Shown: piece after piece, positions 9,307 to 62,886 of the stretch
How positions within the stretch are numbered: the first letter of the stretch is position 1
Layout of the letters: every line of letters begins with the position of its first letter
From: Eubacteriales bacterium
GTDB lineage: Bacteria; Bacillota; Clostridia; Lachnospirales; Lachnospiraceae
Assembly (NCBI GenBank): GCA_030537195.1
Contig: JAUNOK010000001.1
Span: forward strand, 62,001 to 126,000
Direction of reading: 5' to 3'
Length of the DNA: 64,000 nt
Position numbers and translations under genes: made by a program
Notes under the pieces: generated by a model
Seen by the model: the letters and a program-made list of their open reading frames with translations, nothing else
Told to the model about the DNA's origin: nothing
Database searches by the model: none

Positions 9307-9495
9307 CTGTAAGGGTTTCCCCTGCAGCAGGTAGAGGTCGCACGATTCAAGAGTAATTATCCAGATGCCCCGGAAGGCATAAGAAGGATAATAAAAGGGG
9401 AAAGTGCCGAAGAGGATTGTTTCCGGAGCAGTCTTACTGGGCGTAGGATTAATAGTTTTACGACTGTCATCGGATAGATGGAGAGCTACTTAAAG
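9307..9495 (+). ncRNA. Lysine riboswitch (L box)
   Basis: Diagnostic L-box segments occur in order: AGAGGTCGCACG, then AAGAGTAA, GGGGAAAGTGCCGAAG, ACTGGGCGTAGG and GACTGTCATCGG followed by GGAGAGCTACT. This is the five-helix lysine-binding aptamer, here ahead of dapA and dapB of the lysine / diaminopimelate pathway. Lysine binding is expected to favour the downstream hairpin (9517-9548) and shut off dapA. Exact ends are approximate. Confidence 0.92.
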
Positions 9496-9516
9496 GACTA
9501 TTACTATGATTTCTTT

Positions 9517-33367: not shown

Positions 33368-33383
33368 AAATTTCGGAAATAAA

Positions 33384-33666
33384 TTGGGGTTAGCCAGCCT
33401 CTATTATTATAGCTATATTCCCACAGCAGTTTCTGACTATAGCATATGCTCTCAGGAATCCTGCGCTTAGTGGAACTAAATGCCGCTATATACAAAGTTT
33501 ATTACGGTGCGTCAAATCAAACGCGCTTCGCTTGAACGAGATTTGACACACCGACCTTATGTATATAGCGGCATTAACTTCCACACAGCTCGGATTATTC
33601 GAGCATATGCTATAGTCAGACACCGCAGTGGGGATACACACAGTATTAAAGGCTGGCTAACCCCAA
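33384..33666 (+). repeat. Long foldback element A (structured, family shared with C)
   Basis: The whole 283-base segment folds on itself. Outer 17-bp perfect stem (33384-33400 with 33650-33666, TTGGGGTTAGCCAGCCT), a second long stem carrying GAGCATATGC, then the ATGCCGCTATATACA / TGTATATAGCGGCAT stem, and the apical stem GTCAAATC/GATTTGAC around a 21-base loop beginning AAACGCGC at 33519. The 4-base direct repeat TAAA flanks both ends, but the surroundings are AT-rich. A short frame inside (33480-33686) resembles one in element C. Either an RNA/DNA structure or a mobile foldback element. Confidence 0.8.
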
Positions 33667-33698
33667 TAAAAACCCGAATAAAATAGAAGGAGTATCCT

Positions 33699-36386
33699 AT
33701 GCTTGAATTAAATGATATAAAAAAGGATTATGTGTCCGGGTCTGCTACTGTGAGTGCTTTGAAGGGCATTAATCTTAGGTTCAGGGACTGCGAGTTCGTA
33801 TCCATTCTTGGACAGTCCGGTTGTGGTAAGACTACCATGCTTAACATTATAGGCGGACTTGATAAGTATACGAGCGGAGACCTTAAGATTAATGGAGTAT
33901 CAACTAAGAATTATAAAGACAGAGACTGGGATTTTTACAGAAATAACTCTATTGGTTTCGTATTCCAGAGTTACAATCTGATTCCACACCAGACTGTTTT
34001 ATCTAATGTAGAGCTTGCACTTACACTTTCAGGTGTATCTAAAGCTGAGAGAAAGAAAAGAGCAATAGAGGCACTTGAGAAGGTTGGACTTGGTGAGCAG
34101 ATTCACAAGAAGCCTAACCAGATGTCGGGAGGACAGATGCAGAGAGTTGCCATTGCAAGAGCACTTGTAAATGATCCTGATATCCTGCTTGCCGATGAAC
34201 CTACAGGAGCACTTGATACAGAGACAAGTATCCAGATTATGGAGCTTTTAAAGGAGATATCCAAGGACAGACTTATAATCATGGTAACTCACAATCCGGA
34301 ACTTGCTAAAGATTATTCTACAAGAATAGTCAGATTATTAGACGGTGTGATAACTGATGATTCTAATCCATATTCGCAGGAAGAGATGGAAGCTGATATT
34401 AAGGCAAAAGAGGCTGGTAAGGTCAAGACATCAGAAAAGAAGACTAAGAAGTCAGGAAAGAAGCAGAAGACATCTATGTCGTTCTTTACTGCACTTTCAC
34501 TGTCATTCAATAACCTGATGACTAAGAAAACAAGAACGATTCTCACAGCATTTGCAGGAAGCATAGGAATTATCGGTATTGCAATGATTCTGTCTATCTC
34601 TAATGGTATCCAGTTATACATTGACAGGGTTCAGAGGGATACGCTTTCAAGCTATCCTATAACGCTTCAGGCAGAATCTATTGATATAAGCAGTATGGTT
34701 TCAAGCATGACAGGCAATTCGGATTCAGAAGAGCATGAGGATAAGACTAAGATATATTCTAACGATATCATGGGCGACATGATTAATACCATGGTAAAGG
34801 AAGTTAAGAGCAATAACCTGTCTGAGTTTAAGAAATACATTGAGAATGGCGGCTCTGACATTAAGTCATATGTGAGTGATATTCAGTATTCATATGATGT
34901 TCCCCTTAACATTTATATGAAGGATACTTCTAATGGCGTTGAGCAGTTAAACCCAAGTACAATGTTTGACTCAATATATGGTGAGGGTGCTACAAGCACA
35001 TCTTCTTCAATGTCGTCTGGAATGGGTATGGGAATGTTTTCTAACAGCAGCGTGTGGAAACAGCTTTTAGGAAACCAGCAGGTGCTTGACGAGCAGTATG
35101 ATGTACTTGCAGGACACTGGCCTGAGAATTTCAACGAGGTTGTGCTTGTTGTAGATAAGAATAACGAGGTTGATGACTATACACTTTATTCATTAGGACT
35201 TAAAGACCCTGAGGAAGTAAGAACACTGTTTAAGAAAATGATGGTTGGTGAATCCTACGAGACAGAAAAGGACACAAGCTATACATTTGACCAGATACTT
35301 GATACAGAGTTTAAGCTTGTTATGCCTACAGACATGTATAAGTACAATGATGTAACTGGTACATGGGATGACTACAGCAAAGATGATAAGTTTATGACAA
35401 ATGTTGTAAACAATGGAACTGATATCAAGGTATGTGGAATAATCAGACCAAATGATGATGCAGTCAGCACTTCAATTTCAAGTGGAATCGGTTATACAGC
35501 AAAGCTTACTGAGTACATCATTGATGAGGTAAAGAACAGCGAGATAGCAAAGGCACAGCTTGCTGATACAAGCGTTGATGTGTTTACAGGAGTGCCATTT
35601 GACAATGACAAGAATACAGAGATTACAATGGACGATGTAAATGCATACATGGCAACACTTTCACCAGAGGAAAGCGCCCAGATGCAGGCGATGACAAGTG
35701 GAATGAGCGATGACCAGATATTACAGCTTTTCTCAGCGTCATTAAAGGCAAGAACAACAGACGCAACATTAGACAGCAACAAGTCAAAGCTTGGAATTAC
35801 AGACCTTGACACACCATCACAGATTGATATATATGCAACTGATTTTGATTCAAAGGAAAAGGTTCAGGATATTATCAAGGATTACAACAAATCACAGCAG
35901 GACGATGGCAAGGAAGAAAATGTTATTAACTATACAGATTATGTAGGAATAATGATGTCATCAGTAAGTACAATTATTAATGCAATCTCTTATGTATTAA
36001 TAGCATTTGTTGCAATATCACTTATAGTTTCTTCAATAATGATAGGTATTATCACATACATTTCAGTACTTGAAAGAACTAAGGAAATCGGTGTATTAAG
36101 AAGTATCGGAGCTTCCAAGAAAGATGTTTCAAGAATATTCAATGCAGAGACACTTATCGAGGGCTTTGTTTCGGGAGCACTTGGTATTATTGTTACATTA
36201 CTGCTGTGTATTCCTGCAAATGCGATAATCAAGCACCTTACAGATATTTCCAATGTTGCACAGCTTCCTGTTGCAGGTGGAGTAATACTTATAATAATAA
36301 GCATGTTCCTCACATTTATCGCAGGACTTATCCCTGCAAAGCTTGCAGCTAAGAAAGACCCGGTTGTTGCATTAAGAAGTGAATAA
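33699..36386 (+). CDS. MacB-like ABC transporter, ATPase fused to FtsX permease
   Basis: 895 aa: ATPase (residues 1-225) with GQSGCGKTT, SGGQMQR and LLADEPTGALD; a Lys-rich linker (about 230-265); then a FtsX-type permease with one helix near 290, a large extracytoplasmic domain (300-750) and three closing helices (ISYVLIAFVAISLIVSSIMI onward). Such fused transporters move lipoproteins, peptides or antimicrobial compounds across or out of the membrane. Preceded by element A. ATG follows AAGGAG. Confidence 0.93.
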   Translation: MLELNDIKKDYVSGSATVSALKGINLRFRDCEFVSILGQSGCGKTTMLNIIGGLDKYTSGDLKINGVSTKNYKDRDWDFYRNNSIGFVFQSYNLIPHQTVLSNVELALTLSGVSKAERKKRAIEALEKVGLGEQIHKKPNQMSGGQMQRVAIARALVNDPDILLADEPTGALDTETSIQIMELLKEISKDRLIIMVTHNPELAKDYSTRIVRLLDGVITDDSNPYSQEEMEADIKAKEAGKVKTSEKKTKKSGKKQKTSMSFFTALSLSFNNLMTKKTRTILTAFAGSIGIIGIAMILSISNGIQLYIDRVQRDTLSSYPITLQAESIDISSMVSSMTGNSDSEEHEDKTKIYSNDIMGDMINTMVKEVKSNNLSEFKKYIENGGSDIKSYVSDIQYSYDVPLNIYMKDTSNGVEQLNPSTMFDSIYGEGATSTSSSMSSGMGMGMFSNSSVWKQLLGNQQVLDEQYDVLAGHWPENFNEVVLVVDKNNEVDDYTLYSLGLKDPEEVRTLFKKMMVGESYETEKDTSYTFDQILDTEFKLVMPTDMYKYNDVTGTWDDYSKDDKFMTNVVNNGTDIKVCGIIRPNDDAVSTSISSGIGYTAKLTEYIIDEVKNSEIAKAQLADTSVDVFTGVPFDNDKNTEITMDDVNAYMATLSPEESAQMQAMTSGMSDDQILQLFSASLKARTTDATLDSNKSKLGITDLDTPSQIDIYATDFDSKEKVQDIIKDYNKSQQDDGKEENVINYTDYVGIMMSSVSTIINAISYVLIAFVAISLIVSSIMIGIITYISVLERTKEIGVLRSIGASKKDVSRIFNAETLIEGFVSGALGIIVTLLLCIPANAIIKHLTDISNVAQLPVAGGVILIIISMFLTFIAGLIPAKLAAKKDPVVALRSE

Positions 36387-60363: not shown

Positions 60364-61678
<1,315 letters not shown>

Positions 61679-61743: not shown

Positions 61744-61800
61744 TATATAAGGAAAGAGAATGAGATTATTTATCGATTTCTTGGTGAGTAAAGAATTTAA

Positions 61801-62071
61801 TAGTGAGGGTCGACAGACAGGTTGTGGCGGGTGGAGACCCGGTGTCTGCAGGTGATTGCTCGATTTGCAGCGTGCTGTGTGGGAGTTATGCCGTCATATG
61901 CATAAGATGTGTGCAGAAAATCTCGTTCAAGCTGAGCGCGTTTGATTTTCTGCACACTAATAAGCTTTGCAGATGACGGCATTTACTCCCGCTAAGCTAA
62001 GCTGCCATGAGAGCCATCACCTGCAGGCATTGGGTTTCCACATGCCGCAGCCGTCCGTTTGTCTCTCACTA
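61801..62071 (-). repeat. Long foldback element C (structured, family shared with A)
   Basis: Read on the minus strand it has the same architecture as A: outer stem (TAGTGAG...CTCACTA), a second long stem with CACCTGCAG, the ATGCCGTCATCTGCA / TGCATATGACGGCAT stem, apical stem GCAGAAAATC/GATTTTCTGC, and a 21-base loop (61923-61943) that matches the loop of A at 19 positions. Stems differ from A yet still pair. The internal frame 61797-61982 gives a peptide like that in A. Confidence 0.8.
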
Positions 62072-62091
62072 ATAAATAGATTGGAGTTTTT

Positions 62092-62886
62092 ATGCTTACT
62101 ATACAGAATTATAAGAAGGTAGAAAGCCTTGAAGAAGCCTATGAGCTTAATCAGAAGAAAGCTAACCGCATTGTTGGTGGTATGATGTGGATGCGTATGG
62201 GCGACAACAGAATGAATACTGCTATTGATATGTCAGGGCTTGGACTTGATAAGATTGAGGAATCTGATGAAGAATTTAAGATTGGCTGTATGACTACTTT
62301 AAGACAGCTAGAGGTTCATGAGGGCTTTAATGAATATACAGAGGGCTGTGTTAAAGAGGCTTTAAGACATATTGTAGGGGTACAGTTCAGAAATCTTGCA
62401 ACTGTTGGTGGAAGTATATATGGAAGATATGGATTTTCTGATGTGCTTACACTTTTAATCGGGTTGGATTCATATGTTGAATTATATAAGGGAGGCATTG
62501 TTCCATTAACTGAGTATGCTGCCCGTGATTATGACAGAGATATTGTTGTTAATATTATTGTTAAGAAAAGACCGGTGAATATGTTTTATGAAGCTGTAAG
62601 AATCACAGAAACAGATTTGCCGGTACTTACATGTGCAGGAGTTAAGTTTAAAGATACAGGAGTCTGTAATATCTGCATAGGTGCAAGACCGGGAAGAGCA
62701 ATTGTTGTTGAAGATACAGAAGGAATTCTTGCAGGCGGAATTAATGAGAAGTCTATAGAAGAATTCAGTACATTTGTTAAGACAAATGTGCCTACATCGG
62801 GCAATATGAGAGGAAGTGCTGAGTACAGAAGCCATCTTGCAGGAGTTCTTGCAGGCAGGGCACTTCAGAATATTAACAGAGATTAA
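62092..62886 (+). CDS. Molybdenum hydroxylase FAD-binding subunit
   Basis: 264 aa, CoxM/XdhB family. FAD-binding motif VGGMMWMRMG and ATVGGSIYGRYGFSD; C-terminal CO-dehydrogenase flavoprotein domain. Passes electrons from the 2Fe-2S subunit to NAD or another acceptor. ATG follows TTGGAG. First gene of a 3-subunit operon. Confidence 0.93.
   Translation: MLTIQNYKKVESLEEAYELNQKKANRIVGGMMWMRMGDNRMNTAIDMSGLGLDKIEESDEEFKIGCMTTLRQLEVHEGFNEYTEGCVKEALRHIVGVQFRNLATVGGSIYGRYGFSDVLTLLIGLDSYVELYKGGIVPLTEYAARDYDRDIVVNIIVKKRPVNMFYEAVRITETDLPVLTCAGVKFKDTGVCNICIGARPGRAIVVEDTEGILAGGINEKSIEEFSTFVKTNVPTSGNMRGSAEYRSHLAGVLAGRALQNINRD

Follow-up and report, generated by a model that had tools for sequence, protein, structure and literature searches.

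The window is a 64,000-nucleotide stretch of the genome of a Lachnospiraceae bacterium. It holds two long hairpins of related sequence, A on the plus strand and C on the minus strand. Next to C lies a third hairpin, B, which is unrelated to them in sequence.

33372..33678, plus strand: hairpin A, whole fold; fold z -17.6; extent taken from the fold
33468..33587, plus strand: conserved core of A, about 120 nt, the part entered into the alignment
33518..33540, plus strand: tip of A, CAAACGCGCTTCGCTTGAACGAG; its complement includes GCGAAGC
61470..61658, minus strand: hairpin B, of a second long-hairpin family; unrelated sequence, similar style to A and C
61795..62077, minus strand: hairpin C, whole fold; fold z -11.9; extent taken from the fold
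61875..61994, minus strand: conserved core of C, as aligned
61922..61944, minus strand: tip of C, CAAACGCGCTCAGCTTGAACGAG; its triloop is not TNC, as in 4 of 55 copies

An earlier note had placed A at 33384-33666 and C at 61801-62071. Hairpins do lie there, but both folds reach slightly wider. Every segment that the note quoted was found as written and on the strand given: the paired stems CCGCTATATACA/TGTATATAGCGG in A and CCGTCATCTGCA/TGCATATGACGG in C, the apical stems GTCAAATC/GATTTGAC in A and GCAGAAAATC/GATTTTCTGC in C, and the held loops CAAAG[T/C]TTATTA and AGACACCG.

The fold energy of A is -151.4 kcal/mol, against a mean of -67.7 (sd 4.8) in 100 shuffles, which gives the z of -17.6. 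For C it is -138 kcal/mol, with the z of -11.9 taken from 200 shuffles. No shuffle reached either native value.

Both hairpins have divergent genes on both sides. A stands directly 5' of the ribosome-binding site of an ABC gene at 33699, with this site on one side of the element and a promoter-like TTGCAA-N18-TATATT on the other. C ends 14 nt short of the start of a gene at 62092. Elsewhere in the window, a lysine riboswitch (RF00168) occupies 9324-9496 with 100 bits.

Locus A can be compared between species. In the window's own genome (G000), G002 and G019 the outer arms differ strongly, and each set is complementary within itself. In G009 the interval is without the hairpin, as judged by eye. 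Insertion of A into an older palindrome was rejected on the same G009 site, which by eye holds no long palindrome. At locus C, the interval in a relative (G013) holds a Clostridiales-1 RNA (RF01699, 149.8 bits; L108:1209-1376), whose downstream gene reads in translation as xanthine-dehydrogenase-like.

Copies and Anatomy of the Family

A search of the window's own genome (2.57 Mb) gave 26 match rows. These reduce to 18 distinct places, A and C included; the other eight rows read these hairpins in reverse or are short, weak matches. Among the 18 are a core-deleted copy (L024) and a degenerate one (L023). The element lies between genes or touches gene ends, in either orientation, and many of its positions are common to several species.

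For comparison, 55 tip-bearing copies were collected by BLAST and with a motif derived from the tip of A; tip variants are under-sampled because the motif was built on that tip. The folds span 48 to 563 nt, the 48-nt one being the degenerate L023. Two further copies (G009 C1:66211 and G017 C72:25295) stand outside this set.

Read outward, the hairpin begins with the tip (CAAACGCGCTTCGCTTGAACGAG in A) on an apical stem that varies between copies. Next come an asymmetric loop (CAAAGTTTATTA in A) and a second stem, followed by an A.A mismatch that is conserved and by another variable stem. This leads to a junction, where inspection by eye allows short side hairpins to be drawn, and then to the copy-specific outer arms. 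The tip is near-invariant and the internal loops are conserved; the arms are peculiar to each copy yet complementary. The long copies L011, L012, L015 and L037 (the orthologue of L012) have common conserved blocks over nearly 200 nt on each side, with variable stems between them.

The triloop of the tip reads TNC in 51 of the 55 copies, with N mostly T; the opposite strand then reads GNA. The remaining four, C included, break the GNA loop rule. Over all scanned loci there are 78 distinct contexts, some perhaps due to chance, and 72 of them have the TNC triloop. The tip includes the complement of GCGNAGC, a mini-hairpin sequence of high stability in DNA. A GNA loop with closing G-C pairs gives a DNA mini-hairpin of exceptional stability (PMC4686876).

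Three core-deleted copies (L024, L060 and L061) share an identical junction, AAATGCC/ACACAG. They apparently represent two loci, L024 and L060 being orthologous by eye, and the shared junction suggests recurrent deletion at one point. Two places, L018:4017-4501 and L016, hold pairs of hairpins in inverted arrangement with a few hundred bases between them; G017 has a single hairpin at the L018 locus. In one of the L018 hairpins the right arm is an inverted near-copy of the last codons of the adjoining gene, as outward growth by copying would give.

Gene settings were determined at 29 non-redundant loci with open reading frames of at least 100 codons. Thirteen lie between convergent, 11 between co-directional and five between divergent frames, so no single gene context accounts for the family. 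The share between convergent genes exceeds the baseline of 10 in 49 (p 0.004), a small baseline that includes element sites.

Hairpin B represents a second family of similar build: the loops of its core are conserved, and its arms are complementary but differ from copy to copy. It has matches in 7 of 22 genomes of the genus, in three of these only as fragments of about 30-48 nt, and it adjoins C in both G000 and G002. In 800 kb of the window's own genome there are 16 hairpins of at least 60 bits: ten of the family of A and C, four of that of B, and two singles. One such hairpin was found in 400 kb of a genus member that lacks the family of A and C.

Distribution

A sample of 41 genomes was searched with the core of A as query. 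The element was found in 5 of 22 genomes of the genus (G000, G002, G009, G017 and G019) and in none of 19 outside it. One of the five, G002, is [Eubacterium] eligens ATCC 27750 (NC_012780.1), which carries no annotation under the element. A hairpin with the same loops, and with one base inserted in the tip, is located on a plasmid of Agathobacter rectalis DFI.5.28. To the right of this copy (L241), at about 2760-2860, lies a second long hairpin.

Across 84,980 species genomes the tip pattern occurs in 20 stretches, 15 of them in the Lachnospira group. It is also placed at hairpin tips in Lachnospiraceae RGIG3678, Bacteroidales UBA1754 and Candidatus Woykebacteria RBG_16_39_9b; since the last two are metagenome assemblies, contamination is possible there. 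At L169 and L171 the pattern is present with no such hairpin.

A model of the tip was scored on the best 14 to 31 candidates per genome, so that absences are weak and copy numbers are lower bounds. Within the phylum of the window it was found in at least 4 of 398 genomes (G000, G187, G266 and G381), with at least 13 matches each in G187 and G266, which form one genus of another family, and at least four in G381. In the phylum of the Bacteroidales assembly at least one of 395 genomes has it, namely that assembly, with at least five matches; in the class of the Woykebacteria assembly at least one of 187, again that assembly, with at least one match. Ten of the G187 and G266 copies were compared, and a AACGCTNCGC-like motif occupies both side loops in seven, one loop in two and neither in one.

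G381 also has a non-coding repeat, structured and about 612 bp long, at L192:947-1669; by eye its ends are inverted. The hairpin lies beside or inside this repeat at five places, and 36 more match rows cover only its other part.

The tip pattern was found in no viral contig, and A has no match among phage sequences. Searched against plasmids, the element at L037 matches three records, all typed as non-mobilizable, and that at L186 matches none. The literature searched, in which subscription journals were mostly outside coverage, gave no account of the element.

Covariation and the Type of Base Pairing

The earlier note read A and C as one family of Lachnospiraceae, selected as a folded RNA or DNA and not as protein. 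The two are indeed members of one non-coding family in which both partners of a pair change and the loops hold. The alignment used to assess covariation comprises 42 of the 55 tip-bearing copies; the near-duplicates from G017 and G019, truncated copies, and L043, L068 and L071, which have an indel in the tip, were excluded. Of its 35 core pairs, 26 show changes on both sides, and 96.2% of the cells are standard pairs. Double changes fill 215 cells, well above the 49.6 found in shuffles and the 19 to 38 found with partners slid, and some core positions show four pair types. Paired change by itself, though, is no proof of selection on RNA.

A structured RNA family, either a small RNA or a cis-regulatory leader under ordinary selection for base pairing, would produce covariation of this strength. 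A and C both lie shortly upstream of start codons, and the relative with a Clostridiales-1 RNA at the place of C likewise fits an RNA. A structured RNA is expected to show, besides covariation, a preference for G-U over A.C mismatches on the transcribed strand; the covariation is present and the preference is absent.

One-sided G-U cells number 15 in the core, against the 215 double changes. In the core stems of 53 distinct rows there are 1735 Watson-Crick pairs, 24 G.T, 38 A.C and 51 other mismatches, in a structure predicted under RNA rules, which favour G-U. As a control, the acceptor, T and anticodon stems of tRNAs from the same genome were counted. Rfam placed 39 tRNA matches, of which 30 were used and 26 are distinct; the acceptor offset and the anticodon stem were positioned by best pairing. 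These stems hold 24 G.T, one A.C and six other mismatches, and the difference between 24 to 38 in the core and 24 to 1 in the tRNAs is strong (Fisher p 5e-7). In family B the counts are 29 G.T and 42 A.C, and in the distant relatives 43 and 29.

Whole hairpins hold 164 G.T and 204 A.C mismatches, a split that leans slightly to G-U when the core's minus strand is read (p 0.04); in the core alone the lean has p 0.10. Sorting by transcription yields no wobble excess: G-U stands to A.C as 65 to 61 on the transcribed strand of 17 copies between tandem genes, and as 41 to 38 on the RNA of the nearer gene in 10 copies between divergent genes. Single loci vary. On the RNA of the downstream gene the mismatches are mostly G-U in C of the window's own genome (10 to 1) and in the G017 orthologue of A (10 to 3), which favours an RNA, whereas A itself has 3 to 6 and the G002 copy L036 has 2 to 8.

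The Rfam searches gave no match on the hairpins, and the earlier note had likewise recognised no known RNA family. At the gathering threshold the window yields the lysine riboswitch and two tRNAs, and nothing on A or C. Seven further loci gave no match at that threshold, and L010, L011, L015 and L017, searched at E values up to 5, gave six matches, none on the hairpin. Together with the 13 of 29 loci between convergent genes and the inversion of cores between species described below, these comparisons disfavour the RNA reading, which we consider rather unlikely.

Inversion, Signs of Arm Copying and the Rate of Core Change

Nine single-hairpin loci of the window's genome have an orthologue, and at four of them (L009, which is A, L010, L012 and L013) the hairpin of one or more relatives sits flipped in place between its flanks. 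The loops are flipped as well where they could be aligned. The transcribed strand of the core is thus not conserved. G002 and G017 can be compared at six single-hairpin loci, and at one of them (L040/L069) the hairpin is flipped between flanks 100 and 98% identical. The apical stem there differs on both arms, so that another copy may have taken the place of the original.

Other changes look like copying from arm to arm. At L039/L065 the core differs at a single base, whereas both arms have new sequence along a tract of about 17 pairs. The 20 orthologue pairs examined for clustering contain 67 compensated pairs, and 36 of these lie within three pairs of another compensated one. The mean in shuffles is 21.0 and the maximum 35, so that none of 1000 was as high. 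For single changes the figure is 72 of 153, against a shuffle mean of 61.5 and with 84 of 1000 shuffles as high, so that they do not cluster beyond chance. Copying of one arm onto the other would be expected to cluster the compensated changes and not the single ones. When template switching takes place between inverted repeats, the arms are homogenised and spacers inverted (PMC8604942); for RNA genes it has been proposed as a source of compensatory changes and of loop inversion (PMC8794818).

Over 21 orthologue pairs, one-sided changes outnumber compensated ones by 41 to 25 in the core and by 126 to 45 in the outer arms. In 15 pairs the mean divergence is 7.1% for the core, 10.7% for flanks 400 to 1,300 bases off, which are mostly genes, and 14.8% for the outer arms. 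Several pairs in these sets, including the 20 used for clustering, share a member. The core is more diverged than the flanks in four of the 15 (L018p, L021, L022, which is C, and L023; at the C locus 8.4% against 7.8%), and a sign test for a slower core gives p 0.12 over pairs that are not all independent. Among copies, unpaired columns of the core are better conserved than paired ones (0.824 against 0.737, p 0.012).

These figures bear on whether the repeat is under selection at all. It could be a selfish or neutral palindrome, MITE-like or of the foldback type, with no selected structure and palindromic only through template switching. Such a repeat would be dispersed, mostly intergenic and patchy, as the element is, with footprints of arm copying and with core-deleted and lost copies. 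The four pairs in which the core differs more than its flanks would also suit it. On average, however, the core is less diverged than the flanks, and the same tip recurs in distant lineages. Arm copying alone would be expected to remove the asymmetric loops, which are nonetheless still present. Because it diverges more slowly on average than the flanks, and because loops are kept among diverged copies, the core seems constrained, and a purely neutral origin is, in our judgement, unlikely. Of the earlier claim of selection on a folded RNA or DNA, some selection on the core is therefore indicated, and the RNA half is disfavoured by the lack of a wobble preference, by inversion and by clustering.

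A Proposed Structured DNA Element

A and C are best explained, at about even confidence, as copies of a dispersed, probably non-autonomous, non-coding quasi-palindromic hairpin element that acts at the level of DNA. Judging from sequence, its two arms are apparently kept matched as DNA rather than as RNA.

In this model the arms would be kept matched by arm-to-arm copying, through template switching or intramolecular recombination, of which footprints and no event are seen. The same copying would flip the interior in place and rewrite the outer arms. The core may extrude as a cruciform or become exposed as single-stranded DNA. A putative protein would then recognise the folded core through the GNA-loop mini-hairpin that the tip forms on the core's minus strand. 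This recognition would account for the constraint on the core. The element may have spread as a non-autonomous mobile element by putative separate machinery.

The binding protein and the mobiliser are guesses. No mobiliser was found for the element, and the Y1 transposase (PF01797) is absent from the window's own genome with its 18 places. No recent insertion was demonstrated in Lachnospira.

A related possibility is a site of the attC, single-strand origin or hairpin-promoter type, which would fold as single-stranded DNA and be used by a dedicated enzyme to recombine, to prime or to start transcription. Pairing of the DNA type, the GNA-loop mini-hairpin at the tip with TNC in 72 of the 78 contexts, and the similar motif in both side loops of seven of the ten G187 and G266 copies all agree with this. 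With attC end boxes no more frequent than chance and no associated enzyme found, it is very unlikely.

The structured-element reading may extend further. The family could belong to an undescribed class of structured DNA spread over several phyla, in which a GNA mini-hairpin tip sits on a rod of freely varying stems. It would be read folded, as single-stranded DNA or a cruciform, by a putative dedicated protein, and its arms renewed by template switching in replication. This extension is tentative, and we hold it to be somewhat unlikely.

The family offers a natural case in which textbook covariation, sufficient to propose a new RNA, is apparently maintained in DNA. Two cheap tests could be taken up in structured-RNA screens: a comparison of G.T and A.C counts with tRNAs as the control, and a check for inversion between orthologues. 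Should there be a binding protein, the family would represent a DNA-structure signal of a new kind, present in common gut bacteria. Should there be none, it would serve as a clean natural experiment in the renewal of long palindromes by replication.

Comparison with Known Systems

Clostridiales-1 RNA. This RNA (RF01699) resembles the element in position, filling the interval of C in G013. A and C fail to match its model.

MITEs and foldback transposons. These are non-coding and patchy and have long inverted repeats, and the element shares all of these traits. In 17 copies of the window's own genome, unlike MITEs, the outermost 15 nt are only 27% and 26% identical on average, close to the chance level, and the ends have no direct repeats of 4, 5, 6, 8 or 9 nt beside them; the duplication test is weak, since the ends are fold-defined. 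A MITE was rejected for lack of conserved terminal inverted repeats and of target-site duplication, with the same caution about the ends. A match to a known IS or MITE was one of the outcomes that the earlier note had named as counting against it; the further homologues and covariation that it called for were found.

IS200/IS605 and RAYT partners. A partner of this kind, as in REP/REPIN systems, was rejected for the window's own genome, which has no PF01797 Y1 transposase. Among element-bearing genomes PF01797 is present in four of five, each time interrupted by a stop or as a fragment, against nine of 17 without the element.

Integron attC sites. Structure is kept in attC sites while the stems vary, and the element, which would also act as folded DNA, is similar in both respects. 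It is far longer than attC and lacks RYYYAAC/GTTRRRY end boxes above chance. In 55 hairpins the single boxes occur two and two times, against 1.8 and 2.0 in shuffles, and both boxes together on none of the 110 strands, so attC was rejected at the ends. An attC-like DNA motif, OTH-22-1, has been reported (PMC8632094).

REP/BIME, ERIC and BOX. Bacterial stem-loop repeat families are treated in PMC2267715. The element is non-coding and intergenic, present in many copies and in both orientations, and foldable as DNA or RNA, as are these families. REP/BIME, ERIC and BOX, to which this likeness refers, are dispersed intergenic palindromic repeats. The element differs from them in that its arms are almost wholly different between copies and yet pair, over up to 228 bp by folding, and in that it conserves its tip and internal loops rather than its ends.
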